The notes beneath the pieces were generated by a model that saw only the letters and a list, made by a program, of their open reading frames with translations, did no database searches and was not told the DNA's origin. Made by a program: the position numbers and the translations under genes. Below are positions 15,815 to 39,658 of a stretch of DNA of 64,000 nt, one piece after another (position 1 is the first letter of the stretch; each line of letters starts with the position of its first letter). The DNA is taken from contig JACPUU010000007.1 of the NCBI GenBank assembly GCA_016192075.1, forward strand, positions 62,001 to 126,000, written 5' to 3'. Origin of the DNA: Bacteroidota bacterium (GTDB taxonomy: Bacteria > Bacteroidota > Bacteroidia > Flavobacteriales_D > Crocinitomicaceae).

Positions 15815-17059
15815 ATGCGAAAAGTATTTTCCGTTTTTTCATGCCTGATGGTGTATACCGGTTTATCTCTTGGACAGGGCAAACTCCAACACAGTGTTTA
15901 CTTTGATACAGATCAATCAGTTTTAAGGGCTGACCAGGCCCGGTTATTGAACGCCTGGTTAGATTCAGTGCTGATCAATAACATTCATTCTGTTGAGATC
16001 ACCGGCCATACGGACAGTGATGCGGATAGTTTGTATAACATCAGGCTATCAGATAATCGTTGTAAAACCGTTACGAATCAATTACTCGCGAAAGGTTTCT
16101 CACCGGATTTATTGCACGTGTCTTACCACGGTGAAAATTACCCCATTGCGGCAAACAACAACTCATCGGGAAAGCAGCAAAACAGACGGGTAGATATTGT
16201 TATTCACTATAAAGCAATCCTGGTCAGCACTGAAATCGAACCTGTTGTAATTGATACGTGTGAAGGTATCGACACCACCCTTATTTTTGAAGATGGTACC
16301 CGAATGGTATTCAATAAATGCGAATATTCCGAACTGAAAGAATGCCTGGAGATCAAATTGTGGAATGATATCCGGGAGGCTCAAAGAGATGGAGTTTCAA
16401 TGCGGGATGACGACGGAAATCAATTGGTGAGCAATGGCATGTTCAGTATTACGCTAAAGTCAAAATGCAAAAACATTGAATGTTTCAAAAACAAAGTAAA
16501 GGTTCTGATACCACTAAATCCAATTAATTATTGCGACTACTGCATGAATAACCAACGGCTTTACATCATGAATTCCGCAGGTCAGTGGGTGTTGGATGAA
16601 TCCCGGGTTCTTGAAATTGTTGAAATAGATAGCGTTAAATACATCCAGGTGGAGGTGCAATGTCCGGGTAAGGTAAATTTTGATTGTAAACTTCCGGAGG
16701 GCGTAAAACTCAAATTCAAAGTTCCCGACGATTACGTCATTCAATCATTGCAACTGGTCAATGTATGTCCACGGGCAATCATTAGTTTCAATGATAAGAG
16801 GAAACCAGATTCAAGAGTTGCAAATGTTCCTTGTTGGGATAATTGGTTAGTCTATACAACTATTTTAACACCTGCAGGAGATACAATTGTCATAGACGGT
16901 GTTCCGCTGGAAAAAGCCGGAAATAACAAGATTATTTGCTCAAAATGTGCGAAAGATAAATCTGTTAAATCGGAAAGGGTACTGGGTATTTTCCCAAGCG
17001 GAAAAAGGGCGCATTACCGAAAGTACAAACTGAGTAAAAAGTACTTGTCAGCTCTTTAG
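15815..17059 (+). CDS. OmpA-domain protein with Cys-rich C-terminal region
   Basis: 414 residues. A signal peptide (to about residue 20, LSLGQ) is followed by an OmpA-like peptidoglycan-binding domain at 25-135 (VYFDTDQSVLRADQARLL, VEITGHTDSDADSLYNIRLS, QQNRRVDIVIHY). Residues 140-414 hold more than a dozen cysteines, several in pairs such as CDYC, KCKNIEC and CSKC, and no family I recognise. OmpA domains usually sit at the C-terminus; here the domain is N-terminal. It is probably a periplasmic or outer-membrane-associated protein. The 190 bases after it hold only a weak GGGGA/TCCCC hairpin. Confidence 0.75.
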   Translation: MRKVFSVFSCLMVYTGLSLGQGKLQHSVYFDTDQSVLRADQARLLNAWLDSVLINNIHSVEITGHTDSDADSLYNIRLSDNRCKTVTNQLLAKGFSPDLLHVSYHGENYPIAANNNSSGKQQNRRVDIVIHYKAILVSTEIEPVVIDTCEGIDTTLIFEDGTRMVFNKCEYSELKECLEIKLWNDIREAQRDGVSMRDDDGNQLVSNGMFSITLKSKCKNIECFKNKVKVLIPLNPINYCDYCMNNQRLYIMNSAGQWVLDESRVLEIVEIDSVKYIQVEVQCPGKVNFDCKLPEGVKLKFKVPDDYVIQSLQLVNVCPRAIISFNDKRKPDSRVANVPCWDNWLVYTTILTPAGDTIVIDGVPLEKAGNNKIICSKCAKDKSVKSERVLGIFPSGKRAHYRKYKLSKKYLSAL

Positions 17060-24588: not shown

Positions 24589-27161
24589 TCCGGAAACTAA
24601 TTCATAGCGTTTTGTTACTGCTTATTATCCAAAACGGATATGCGCAACCTTTTGACCTCGACAATATTGTTTTTGAAAATGTCGTTTTTGAAGATGCGGG
24701 CGCCAACACCATTTACCTTGAAACCAATAAAGAAACACGCTTTAATGAGCTGATCCAGATTCTGCCGCAGCATTACCACGACAAAGCTATTTCACCGGCA
24801 GATGAAGCCGCCATGACCATTCTTTTGGCTTACAGCTATTATTACCAGGACGAATATTACGATGCACTGGTCTTCAACCGCATGGCTACAAAAGACATGG
24901 GCAAAAAAATTACCGGAAAACTTCAGCTGGCCAACAAGGTACTCACCGCTATGATCTATGAACGGTTTGGTGATCTTTTAGGGGCTGATAAAATTCTTCA
25001 GAATCTCACCACCGACCGCGACCTTCACCGGTTCCAGGTTGCTGTTTTTTCTGCCTCTCTGAACGTTAAAACACATAATTACAAAACCGCGTACAGCCAA
25101 TTTCAGCTGGCAGCCAACTACGCCGGGCAGGTATCGGTGTTTGATGAATTTAATGTGTACTACAACCTGTCAAAAACAGCTGAAGCGCAAAATAAAAAAC
25201 AGGAACAGCTCGCTTACGCTCTCATGGCTGACAGTGTGATCCATTCCGGAAAATCACCGCTGCTTTGCAAAGAACTTACCTATACCTTCAATACCAGTTC
25301 AGGTCAGAATTTCCTGGACTCCCTAAAAAAATCAGCCCGGCTGAACCTGGCTATTGCTTACCGAAAAAATGGCTACTATACCTCTGCCATTTCACTGCTT
25401 GAAGAATCTATCAGCACACAGGGCAATGCCGCTACCGCTGAACGGGCTGAACTTTTATTGAATAAAGGCACAACCTTTACACTGATGCAGAACTACGGGG
25501 ACGCTTCCCTGGCACTTGCAGAAGCATTAAAAATCTACGCTGCCCTTAACTTCAACTCAAAAGTGAGCGAGACCTATAACCTGCTGGCGAAAAATAATTT
25601 TCTGCGGGCAGATTACGGTAAAGTCATTGATCAGTGCAATGAATCAATTGAGTATGCCAAACAAAGCAATGACCTTCAGAACCTGGCTGCCGCTTACCTG
25701 ATTATGTCAGAAACCTACGCTGCCAATAACGACTTTGTCAATTCACAGAAATACTACAAACTCTACATTTCAACCAAAGAGAGCTATGAAAAGCAGGAAG
25801 AAAAAATAACCAGCGGTTTTGTAACCAAACAAAGTGAAACCAAAATTATTCTTCAAAAGGTAGAGTCCGATATCATTGAAAGTGAAATGCGTGAAATTGA
25901 ATTACTGAACGCATTAATGACAGCCAATCAGAAAGAGCAGGAAAATGTATTTCTGAAGCAGCAGAATGAATTGCGTGAAAAAGACCTGATCAATAAACAG
26001 CTGGAGAAAGAACAGATTCAGCGAAACCTGCTCATCATGCAAAGCCAGCTTGAAAATGAACAGCTGCAGCTGAAATACATCGAAGAGCAAAATGAAAAAG
26101 AACGGCAGATTGCCGAGAACAGTGAAAACAAGAAAAACCTTGAATTACTGAATACCCAAAAAGACGCCGCAGACAAACAAAACCAGCTCAACACACTGGA
26201 ACTTAAAGCTACCAAAAACCGGCAGCTGATGTTTATGGTGATTATGGGTATCATGGTTCTTTTTCTGGCCTTTACCATTTATTTTATTTTGCGGTTCAGA
26301 CGGCAAAACCGTGTCATTGAAAAAAACAACCTCATCATTCAGCAAACCAATGCAGAACTGGTTGGTACTATTGAACAGGTCAATATTCAGAAAGCGTTGA
26401 TTGAGACCAAAAACGAAGAAATCACAGACAGTATTGCCTACGCCAAACGCATTCAAAATGCCATTCTGCCAAACGACAGTTTAGTTGGACAATGCCTGGG
26501 AGAAAATTTTATTTTTTACCGGCCGAAAGATATTGTTGCCGGTGATTTTTACTGGCTTTCTCCGGAAGAAGGATCGGTTCTTTTCGCTGTAGCAGACTGC
26601 ACCGGGCACGGCGTACCGGGAGCAATGGTGAGTGTGGTTTGTCACGCTGCGCTTACCCGTTCTATCCGTGAATTTAAGCTCACACAACCAAACGAAATTC
26701 TGAACAAGGTACGTGAGCTGGTGCTGGAAACATTTGAACGAAGCGGTGAAGGTGTTAATGACGGAATGGATATTGCGCTTTGTAATTTTAATCCAAAAAG
26801 CCGGTTGTTGAAATATGCGGGAGCAAACAACGGCATCTTTATTATCCGCCAGGGATCATTGATTGAGCTGAAAGCAGACAAACAACCCATTGGTAAATTC
26901 ATCAATGCCAAACCCTTCACCCACCAGGAAATTCAACTTGAAAAAGGCGATCAGCTTTACCTGTTCTCAGACGGTTTTGCCGATCAGTTTGGCGGTGAAA
27001 AAGGTAAAAAATTTAAGAGCCAGACCTTTAAAGAAATGCTCATTCACCACCGTGATGAAGCCATGGAAAAACAGCGTTTGATTCTCGAATCAGCCTTTGA
27101 CAAGTGGCGCGGTGAATTGGAGCAGATCGATGATGTCTGTGTTATGGGAATCCGGATTTAG
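24585..27161 (+). CDS. TPR-coiled-coil-SpoIIE (PP2C-type) signalling phosphatase
   Basis: About 850-858 residues. A signal or anchor segment ends at NGYAQ. TPR-like helices cover about 60-400, a long charged coiled coil 400-535, a membrane helix about 545-565 (MFMVIMGIMVLFLAFTIYFI), a second short coiled coil 570-610, and a SpoIIE phosphatase domain to the end (YRPKDIVAGDFYW, FAVADCTGHGVPGAMVS, YLFSDGFADQFGG) with the metal-binding aspartates in place. Periplasmic sensing and cytoplasmic dephosphorylation of a partner is the likely role. The start is uncertain: TTG at 24612 gives a poor signal peptide; reading from CTG at 24585, overlapping the receptor stop, adds the basic IRKLIHSV typical of one. 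The last codons belong to a tandem repeat. Confidence 0.82.
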   Translation: MIRKLIHSVLLLLIIQNGYAQPFDLDNIVFENVVFEDAGANTIYLETNKETRFNELIQILPQHYHDKAISPADEAAMTILLAYSYYYQDEYYDALVFNRMATKDMGKKITGKLQLANKVLTAMIYERFGDLLGADKILQNLTTDRDLHRFQVAVFSASLNVKTHNYKTAYSQFQLAANYAGQVSVFDEFNVYYNLSKTAEAQNKKQEQLAYALMADSVIHSGKSPLLCKELTYTFNTSSGQNFLDSLKKSARLNLAIAYRKNGYYTSAISLLEESISTQGNAATAERAELLLNKGTTFTLMQNYGDASLALAEALKIYAALNFNSKVSETYNLLAKNNFLRADYGKVIDQCNESIEYAKQSNDLQNLAAAYLIMSETYAANNDFVNSQKYYKLYISTKESYEKQEEKITSGFVTKQSETKIILQKVESDIIESEMREIELLNALMTANQKEQENVFLKQQNELREKDLINKQLEKEQIQRNLLIMQSQLENEQLQLKYIEEQNEKERQIAENSENKKNLELLNTQKDAADKQNQLNTLELKATKNRQLMFMVIMGIMVLFLAFTIYFILRFRRQNRVIEKNNLIIQQTNAELVGTIEQVNIQKALIETKNEEITDSIAYAKRIQNAILPNDSLVGQCLGENFIFYRPKDIVAGDFYWLSPEEGSVLFAVADCTGHGVPGAMVSVVCHAALTRSIREFKLTQPNEILNKVRELVLETFERSGEGVNDGMDIALCNFNPKSRLLKYAGANNGIFIIRQGSLIELKADKQPIGKFINAKPFTHQEIQLEKGDQLYLFSDGFADQFGGEKGKKFKSQTFKEMLIHHRDEAMEKQRLILESAFDKWRGELEQIDDVCVMGIRI

Positions 27162-27702
27162 GAGTTAGCTCTTAGGTGTTAGGAGTTAGGAGTTAGTGAG
27201 GGAAGTGGCAAGAGGGTTAAGTTCCCAGAGGCTGCTTAACATTTAGTCATAAGTTTTTGTCTGTGTTATGGGAATCCGGATTTAGGAGTTAGCTCTTAGG
27301 GGTTAGGAGTTAGTGAGGGAAGTGGCAAGAGGGTTAAGTTCCCAGGGGCTGATCAACATTTAGTCATAAGTTTTTGTCTGTGTTATGGGAATCCGGATTT
27401 AGGAGTTAGCTCTTAGGGGTTAGGAGTTAGTGAGGGAAGTGGCAAGAGGGTTAAGTTCCCAGAGGCTGCTCAACATTTAGTCATAAGTTTTTGTCTGTGT
27501 TATGGGAATCCGGATTTAGGAGTTAGCTCTTAGGGGTTAGGAGTTAGTGAGAGAGGTGGCAAGAGGGTTAAGTTCCCAGAGGCTGATCAACATTTAGTCA
27601 TAAGTTTTTGTCTGTGTTATGGGAATCCGGATTTAGGAGTTAGCTCTTAGGTGTTAGGAGTTAGTGAGGGAAGTGGCAAGAGGGCTAAGTTCCCAGAGGC
27701 TG
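27135..27702 (+). repeat. 117-bp minisatellite, about 4.8 copies, overlapping the end of the phosphatase gene
   Basis: Units start at 27135, 27259, 27376, 27493 and 27610; the first is 124 bases (one extra GGAGTTA), the next three 117, the last about 93. Each begins with the same 27 bases that form the last codons and stop of the phosphatase gene, continues with heptamer-phased TTAGNNN motifs (TTAGGAG, TTAGCTC, TTAGGGG, TTAGTGA) and ends in a shared unique segment. Copies differ at only a few positions, so the amplification is recent. From 27703 to 27883 I see no gene. Confidence 0.92.
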
Positions 27703-27883: not shown

Positions 27884-28867
27884 TTAATACGCCCATTTAA
27901 TATACATTCCGCCCCAGGTGAAACCTGCACCAAATGTTGTCAGAATGATATTGTCTCCTTTTTTCAGTTCATGTTCCCATTCGTACAGGCAAAGCGGTAA
28001 TGTTGCGCTGGTTGTGTTTCCGTATTTGTGAATGTTCAGCATTACTTTTTCCATGCCAATTCCCATGCGTTCGGCAGCTGCTTCAATGATGCGTTTGTTA
28101 GCCTGATGCGGTACCAGGAAAGCAACATCGTCTGCAGAAAGGTTGTTCCGAACCATCATTTCTTCAGCCACATCAGCCATTTTGGTAACGGCGATTTTAA
28201 AAACAGCCTGGCCGTCCATGTATACAAAATGTTGTTTATTCAGCACGGTATCGTATGACGCCGGATTTAAACTACCACCGGCAGGTTGATACAAGTATTT
28301 TTTTCCACTGCCGTCTACATACATCCGTGCGTCTATGATTCCGTTTTCGTCGGCAGATGGTTCCAGAAGCACGGCTCCTGCGGCATCACCAAAAAGAATC
28401 GATGTTTTACGATCGGTATAATCCACAATGCTGGACATTTTATCACTGCCAATCACCAAAACCCGTTTGTGCGTTCCTGACTCAATGAATTTTGAACCCG
28501 TTTGCAGGGCATAAATAAAACTGGAACAGGCGGCCTGCAAATCAAATCCCCAGGCATTTTTAGCGCCAATCATATCTGCAACCACGTTGGCTGTTGCCGG
28601 ATACTGGTGATCAGGCGTTACTGTGGCAACAATAATCAAATCAATCGAATCAGCTGTAATGCCCCGTTTTTCCAGAACATTTTTGGCGGCTTCTGCAGCC
28701 ATAAAGGCTGATGCTTTTGTTTTATCTTTAAGAATTCTGCGTTCGGTAATTCCACTGCGTGTGACAATCCACTCATTGGTAGTTTCTACCAGGGTCTCCA
28801 TTTCCTCATTATTCAAAACGTAGTCCGGAAGATAGGCACCTACTGCTGTAATTGCTGCTCTGTTCAT
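27884..28867 (-). CDS. fabH: Beta-ketoacyl-ACP synthase III
   Basis: 327 residues, the usual length. It condenses an acyl-CoA starter with malonyl-ACP to begin fatty-acid synthesis. The catalytic triad is visible: Cys114 in QAACSSFIYAL, His in FLVPHQANKRI and Asn in YGNTTSATLP. The N-terminal NEWIVTRSGITERR is also typical. It is transcribed alone; the usual partners rpmF and plsX are not here. TACCTTTG on the minus strand at 28904-28911 is its promoter. Confidence 0.95.
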   Translation of the reverse strand: MNRAAITAVGAYLPDYVLNNEEMETLVETTNEWIVTRSGITERRILKDKTKASAFMAAEAAKNVLEKRGITADSIDLIIVATVTPDHQYPATANVVADMIGAKNAWGFDLQAACSSFIYALQTGSKFIESGTHKRVLVIGSDKMSSIVDYTDRKTSILFGDAAGAVLLEPSADENGIIDARMYVDGSGKKYLYQPAGGSLNPASYDTVLNKQHFVYMDGQAVFKIAVTKMADVAEEMMVRNNLSADDVAFLVPHQANKRIIEAAAERMGIGMEKVMLNIHKYGNTTSATLPLCLYEWEHELKKGDNIILTTFGAGFTWGGMYIKWAY

Positions 28868-31372: not shown

Positions 31373-31417
31373 ATCTTCATCCGAAGAAAAAATTATTTTT
31401 TAGTTTTGTTTTGTTTT

Positions 31418-31975
31418 GTGAGCAGAAATTACAAATTTCATAATCCTACAGCGGCTTATTTTGTCAGTTTTGCGGTTGTGGACTGGCTGGATGTATTTAC
31501 CCGAAATGAATACAAGGATATTTTATTGGAGAGCCTGAGTTTCTGTCAAAAAAATAAACGCATGGAAATTTATGCCTGGTGTATTATGTCAAACCATGTT
31601 CACCTGGTATTCCAAAGTATTGACGGGCAAACACCAGACCAATTGTTGGGAGACTTTAAGCGGTTCACCAGTAATGCGGTTGTTAAAGCAATAAAAGAAA
31701 ATCCGCAGGAAAGCAGAAAAGAATTTTTACTTGACCGATTCAAAAAAGCAGCTGCTAATAGTTCCAATGTTAAACATTATCAGTTCTGGAGACACGATAA
31801 CCAGCCCATTGAATTATGGAGTAACCACGTAATTTCACAGAAAATAAGATATATTCATAATAATCCTGTTGCTGCAGGGTTAGTATTCAGACCCGAGGAT
31901 TACCGTTATAGCAGTGCCGTTGATTACAGCGGTGAAAAAGGACTGTTGGAGGGTGTTGTTTTGGCAAGTATTTGA
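31418..31975 (+). CDS. REP-associated tyrosine transposase (RAYT)
   Basis: 185 residues from the GTG at 31418, which gives the usual start (VSRNYKFHNPTAAYFVSF); the frame is open a little further upstream. Family features are the Y1-type HUH-like motif in WCIMSNHVHLVFQ, QTPDQLLGDFKRFTS, FWRHDNQPIELW and IRYIHNNPVAAGLVFRPEDY, with the catalytic tyrosine probably in the IRYIHNNP helix. RAYTs process REP palindromes as single-stranded DNA; matching REP-like hairpins lie immediately upstream. The gene looks intact. Confidence 0.88.
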   Translation: MSRNYKFHNPTAAYFVSFAVVDWLDVFTRNEYKDILLESLSFCQKNKRMEIYAWCIMSNHVHLVFQSIDGQTPDQLLGDFKRFTSNAVVKAIKENPQESRKEFLLDRFKKAAANSSNVKHYQFWRHDNQPIELWSNHVISQKIRYIHNNPVAAGLVFRPEDYRYSSAVDYSGEKGLLEGVVLASI

Positions 31976-39471: not shown

Positions 39472-39658
39472 CCTGAACGAAGCATAGCGTAGTGAAGGAT
39501 CTGCCCCCAGTAACGCTCAATCCTAATTGACATCTAACGTCAACCGGATGAGATCCTTCACTTCGTTCAGGATGACATGCTAACAGTGGTGCTTTTGCGC
39601 TACGCTTCGTTCAGGATGACGTGCTAACAGTGGTGCTTTTGCGTTATGCTTCGTTCAG
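39467..39658. repeat. Inverted and tandem intergenic repeat block
   Basis: GTCATCCTGAACGAAGC (39467 on) and its reverse complement CTTCGTTCAGGATGAC form large inverted arms with AGTGAAGGATCT/AGATCCTTCACT. In the right half a 44-base unit (CTTCGTTCAGGATGAC-TGCTAACAGTGGTGC-TTTTGCG) is repeated at 39561, 39605 and partly at 39649. It fills the gap between the glycosyltransferase and PdxH genes. Confidence 0.9.

Follow-up and report, generated by a model that had tools for sequence, protein, structure and literature searches.

A minisatellite behind a SpoIIE-type gene probably captured one arm of a dispersed heptamer element that elsewhere flanks an S23 gene

How does a tandem repeat come to contain the stop codon and last codons of a signalling gene together with a run of seven-base motifs? 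In the window, the whole stretch of 64,000 nucleotides analysed here, such an array lies at positions 27134-27702, between two convergent genes. The first (24612-27161, forward strand) encodes an 849-aa SpoIIE-family phosphatase (PF07228, E 5e-22) with a TPR-like N-terminal part, and the second (27884-28867, reverse strand) is a fabH-type gene for 3-oxoacyl-ACP synthase III. The SpoIIE/TPR protein is a member of a large paralogous family in its own genome, where it has 27 matches, many of them over its C-terminal half. TRF describes one forward-strand minisatellite with a period of 117, 4.8 head-to-tail copies, 95% matches and a score of 1019, in agreement with the roughly five near-identical 117-bp units reported in the initial annotation. 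Alignment of the units places the first at 27135-27258 and confirms that it is one heptamer longer than the others (124 versus 117 bp). Units 2, 3 and 4 (27259-27375, 27376-27492 and 27493-27609) are each 117 bp long, the fourth carrying a private AGAGAGG variant, and unit 5 (27610-27702) is truncated to 93 bp after GAGGCTG.

All five units open with the 3′ 27 bases of the SpoIIE-type gene, TAG stop included (GTCTGTGTTATGGGAATCCGGATTTAG), as had been claimed. The heptamer-phased arm follows, in unit 1 at 27154-27198 of the forward strand (GGATTTAG GAGTTAG CTCTTAG GTGTTAG GAGTTAG GAGTTAG), and the stop region ATTTAG of the gene is in step with the heptamer phase. The TTAGNNN phasing noted earlier is clear from the motif GGAGTTAGGAGTTAG, which, with up to three mismatches allowed, has 16 matches in the window, all of them inside the array, against 0.73 expected. 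No other 7/8-nt phased array is present in the window. At the unit junctions lies a 23-base linker (27236-27258, forward strand, in unit 1), missing after the last unit; it has no further copy within the window, and a search for its origin found none. A 44-bp tandem repeat of 2.2 copies (CTTCGTTCAGGATGACATGC...) at 39561-39658 of the window is akin to the CTTCGCTGTGCTCAGAAAGACAAGG sequence at about 27740 and is possibly another dispersed repeat.

Assembly is error-prone where a repeat exceeds the length of a short read, and the whole array could in principle be an artefact of this kind. The copies themselves argue otherwise. All units but one carry private substitutions (GGTG/GGGG; AGGGAAG/AGAGAGG; GAGG/GGGG; GGGTT/GGGCT in the unit alignment) and unit 1 has its private heptamer; with such differences between copies an artefact is highly improbable.

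A coding role is ruled out since no reading frame is open across 27134-27702. There is no terminator-like site between the SpoIIE-type stop and the array, and it is therefore plausible that, as predicted, the mRNA ends in the repeated units. The array might then be kept for a function, either as a 3′ UTR or as a terminator for the convergent genes, through roadblocking, RNase III cutting or the binding of a protein to RNA repeats; its position and the G-rich segments that would be repeated in the mRNA tail fit such a role. However, the missing terminator-like site, units that on neither strand fold better than shuffled sequence (z -0.9 and -0.3) and the presence of similar arrays in many unrelated intergenic places make selection for function unlikely. 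On the first two of these grounds the units were rejected as functional hairpins or terminators. The sole match to known RNA families in the window is a tRNA.

Judged as a minisatellite, the array is unremarkable, since repeats of this size are frequent here. In the 0.97 Mb of the 4.65-Mb genome from which the count was taken, TRF finds 11 arrays with a period of at least 90 and a score of at least 300, almost all of them intergenic, and the array in the window ranks third by score. Several of the genome's minisatellites have no heptamers, so duplication does not need them. Two further arrays on contig C5 resemble the one in the window in single respects: at 15888-16354 of locus L302 an array of two 233-bp units overlaps the last bases of an upstream ORF, as the window array does, and at 18372-18984 of L306 a 106/211-bp minisatellite has a unit with CATTCGTTAATC heptamers akin to those found next to an S23 gene at C15:31938.

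The rest of the genome bears on the origin of the heptamers. With the array as query, no whole-unit copy is found elsewhere in the 4.65 Mb, but ten other short stretches match segments of it, chiefly the heptamer block. The pattern TTAGNNNTTAGNNNTTAG occurs 41 times in the genome, 16 of them inside the array, and its reversed control five times. These heptamers, including the odd AGCTCTT unit, form a dispersed family (family 1) with about 18 other intergenic sites. A 32-nt arm model, with the G-rich arm AGGATTT AGCTCTT AGGATTT AGGAGTT AGTA, identifies 17 inverted pairs, and pattern matches add an eighteenth. The intact element thus has a spacer with an arm of 7-nt-phased repeats on each side, the two arms being inverted relative to each other, and in every pair the G-rich arm precedes the C-rich arm, the reverse order never being seen. 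Spacer length runs from roughly 10 bp up to roughly 650 bp, and most spacers are too short for an ORF. Some 17 copies have a spacer devoid of an S23 gene and are mostly ORF-less hairpins, while one copy encloses an S23 gene. Three paired elements were tested and fold as strong hairpins relative to shuffles (z -5.6, -6.5 and -3.3). The arm at 27154-27198 is the left, G-rich arm of family 1 and has no inverted partner nearby; arm matches at the array all lie on one strand, which makes them left arms only, and the array is not bounded by terminal inverted repeats.

These results bear on the suggestion in the initial annotation that the array grew from the 3′ end of the gene. The gene tail is indeed inside the duplicated unit. 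The heptamer block is the arm of a dispersed element, and its recurrence at about 18 other intergenic places argues that the heptamers did not grow from the gene. The strictly local version of that suggestion, in which TTTAG of the stop region slipped into heptamers and the block was then duplicated with no element involved, could appeal to the heptamer phase of the stop codon and to the frequency of minisatellites in this genome. It does not account for the same heptamers, odd AGCTCTT unit and all, at the other sites, and is quite unlikely.

The preferred reading, to which we give a probability of roughly 0.7, is that the array arose by a tandem duplication that took in, along with the SpoIIE gene end, the one arm left of a small dispersed element. 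A two-armed element would once have stood directly behind the SpoIIE-type stop codon, with ATTTAG falling in heptamer phase, and its right arm would later have been lost. Heptamer slippage or template switching may then have duplicated gene tail, arm and spacer about fivefold. On this view the mRNA would carry the array in its 3′ untranslated tail, and any influence on termination or mRNA lifetime would be secondary. Tandem duplication is also seen at other family-1 loci, one at 662 kb of C12 (162 bp x 2) and one at 15 kb of C13, where it affects the spacer (146 bp x 2.5).

The single gene-bearing copy of family 1 connects the element to a known protein family. At C5:1835-2362, between sdhB and sdhA and not inside a 23S rRNA gene, inverted family-1 arms enclose a 139-aa ORF for an S23 protein (23S_rRNA_IVP / four helix bundle protein; PF05635, E 8e-36; TIGR02436), which also weakly matches the retroelement protein Avd. 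S23 proteins may be pentamers, as the structures 2gsc and 2rld, with five chains apiece, suggest. The PF05635 profile detects four genes in the genome, none of them on C7, the contig that carries the array. Three of the four have 7-nt-phased inverted flanks, each built of a different heptamer, and the one on C8 is without clear phased arms. The heptamer family of a second S23 gene, distinct from family 1, likewise recurs without that gene, at no fewer than six places, with a clean hairpin at C16:130699-130817. The array in the window has neither an S23 gene nor an inverted arm and is therefore not itself an S23 element.

Phased flanks are a feature of S23 genes well beyond this genome. PF05635 is present in 54 of 60 genomes of the host's taxonomic family and in 90 of 118 of the phylum. 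A survey of 58 Bacteroidota S23 loci compared two adjacent and two far windows per locus (116 versus 116). The best short lag was 7 or 8 in 94 of the 116 adjacent 300-nt windows as opposed to 24 of the 116 windows at the outer ends. Strong phasing, defined as a lag 7/8 score of at least 19/28 in windows of 400-500 nt, was found in 63 of 116 windows adjacent to S23 and in 7 of 116 far windows. The repeats-per-arm measure, which has a floor of five, was not used. Among strong arms, 84 of 95 share the polarity of family 1 (G-rich if left, C-rich if right), a count in which the loci are not all independent, so that its p value serves as a rough guide. On plasmids the association is complete in the ten loci inspected, nine cyanobacterial and one from Gemmatimonadota, all of which have phased repeats on both sides of S23; the arms are inverted in nine and mixed in the tenth (L392). 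GGGAGTA arms, for example, surround S23 between the genes of two ribonucleotide reductase subunits in Nostoc edaphicum.

Phased arms are not general to small inserted genes, a possibility ruled out by two controls. HepT genes have strong phasing in 2 of 54 adjacent and 2 of 54 far windows, and 24 Y1_Tnp loci of the host's taxonomic family in 0 of 48 and 1 of 48. The second control also bears on the proposal that the hairpins are of a REP/REPIN-like kind and are mobilised by a REP-associated tyrosine transposase (RAYT). Such a gene is at hand, 4 kb from the array, at 31406-31975 of the window (NCBIfam REP_Tyr_transpos), and short palindromic intergenic repeats are the usual substrate of RAYTs. 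Yet the Y1_Tnp genes are not flanked by strongly phased repeats, the minisatellite is the sole phased array in the window, and the arms accompany S23 genes instead. This proposal is very unlikely.

The relation between arms and S23 proteins is loose. Neither the 5-mer content of the arms (Spearman 0.05, p 0.20) nor their period (p 0.73) correlates with S23 protein similarity, which counts against a given S23 protein recognising a given heptamer and suggests either a quicker turnover of arms than of the gene or the copying of arms inside each genome from a common source. When left and right flanks are aligned locally in inverted orientation, the median score is 20 as against 14 for cross-locus pairs, and one locus only exceeds the 99th percentile of the latter; the top cross-locus score, 150, is taken to come from orthologous loci.

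Genomes differ in whether a given gene junction carries such an element. The sdhB-sdhA junction is occupied by S23 in five genera with differing heptamers, and, one pair excepted, the S23 proteins found there are not mutual closest relatives; together these observations suggest that elements have inserted there more than once. In the genus of G001, five genomes have S23 between sdhB and sdhA, and the junction of G068 is empty. That of G055 has neither S23 nor obvious arms, and that of G023 retains only C-rich, right-arm-like heptamers, a one-armed relic like that inferred for the window array. Elements can also be inherited for long, as indicated by orthologous S23 proteins of 63-96% identity at another junction (L244, L246, L248 and L253). 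Mobility of the elements would account for such patterns, and neither a target-site duplication nor a transposition enzyme was identified for them. In G099 (L351, 1991-2641) S23 at the sdhB-sdhA junction is replaced, behind a heptamer arm, by two ORFs called HEPN-like and nucleotidyltransferase-like from sequence motifs by eye rather than by profile search.

Among the closest known counterparts are the intervening sequences (IVS) of 23S rRNA genes. In Coxiella burnetii, for instance, an S23 ORF lies inside terminal inverted repeats, which pair into a stem of about 28 bp; these insertions are excised by RNase III, occur sporadically and are suspected to be mobile (PMC4990558). The element at C5:1835-2362 has the same layout, an S23 ORF between inverted arms. 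In contrast to the IVS, the elements described here lie between protein genes and their arms are 7/8-nt-phased repeats, and the window array is one-armed and lacks S23. Intact elements probably behave like the IVS: they would insert at gene junctions, and in RNA the paired arms would set the insert apart, possibly as a substrate for RNase III. An S23 gene in what looks like a gene junction can also be found in a published gene table of Flavobacterium columnare, which lists a four helix bundle protein between guanylate kinase and nicotinic acid mononucleotide adenylyltransferase (PMC5524665).

Heptamer repeats have a literature of their own. Direct repeats of TAACTGA are described from Beggiatoaceae, Cyanobacteria and some Bacteroidetes (MacGregor 2015, PMC4679880); they are mainly direct there, a role in translational regulation is proposed and, in the parts consulted, no connection is made to S23 genes. 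They and the cyanobacterial STRRs resemble the present arms in being scattered, intergenic tandem heptamers with 7-nt indels and longer regions of mixed heptamers, but the arms here are inverted pairs that often flank S23, and the units are of the TTAGGAG/TTAGCTC type and not TAACTGA. Complementary heptamer-phased arms that make a stem-loop are known from the P6b region of the Nostoc tRNA-Leu intron, a stem of 7-nt repeats that shifts between motif classes (PMC4476775), although that stem lies inside a group I intron and has no link to S23. Bacterial minisatellites and VNTRs share with the window array head-to-tail, near-identical, intergenic units of about 100 bp; the unit here differs in containing a stop codon, the last codons of a gene and the arm of a dispersed element. 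No report of a link between S23 and heptamers was found in the open-access papers searched.

A broader reading, tentative and at somewhat less than even odds, is that S23 genes belong to widespread mobile cassettes that end in inverted 7/8-nt-phased arrays of fixed polarity and that, in several phyla, insert where two genes adjoin. The unexplained heptamers seen in Cyanobacteria and Bacteroidota would then be the ends and ORF-less relics of such cassettes, and the 23S rRNA IVS a special case inserted in rRNA. The element joins two puzzles that were found treated separately, the function of S23 proteins and the intergenic heptamer repeats of bacteria. If S23 genes do reside in heptamer-armed cassettes across phyla, the spread of the IVS family, its RNA processing and its function would become testable outside rRNA, and hundreds of natural insertions could be compared with empty sites.

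Several loci deserve mention for their setting or their contents. On three cyanobacterial plasmids (L390, L392 and L396) phased-arm S23 cassettes lie within runs of CRISPR-cas genes, in two taxa between cas6 and cas4 with different S23 proteins, and in a third taxon between cas10 and a cmr3-type gene. At L167 (3565-3920) heptamer arrays that are direct, not inverted, flank a ribosomal protein L32-like gene, with two other genes outside. In L097 (366-1548) inverted AATTACG-type heptamer arms about 1.1 kb apart surround a 220-aa ORF that is unrelated to S23 and has the appearance of a secreted or outer-membrane protein, from which it follows that cargo other than S23 may exist.
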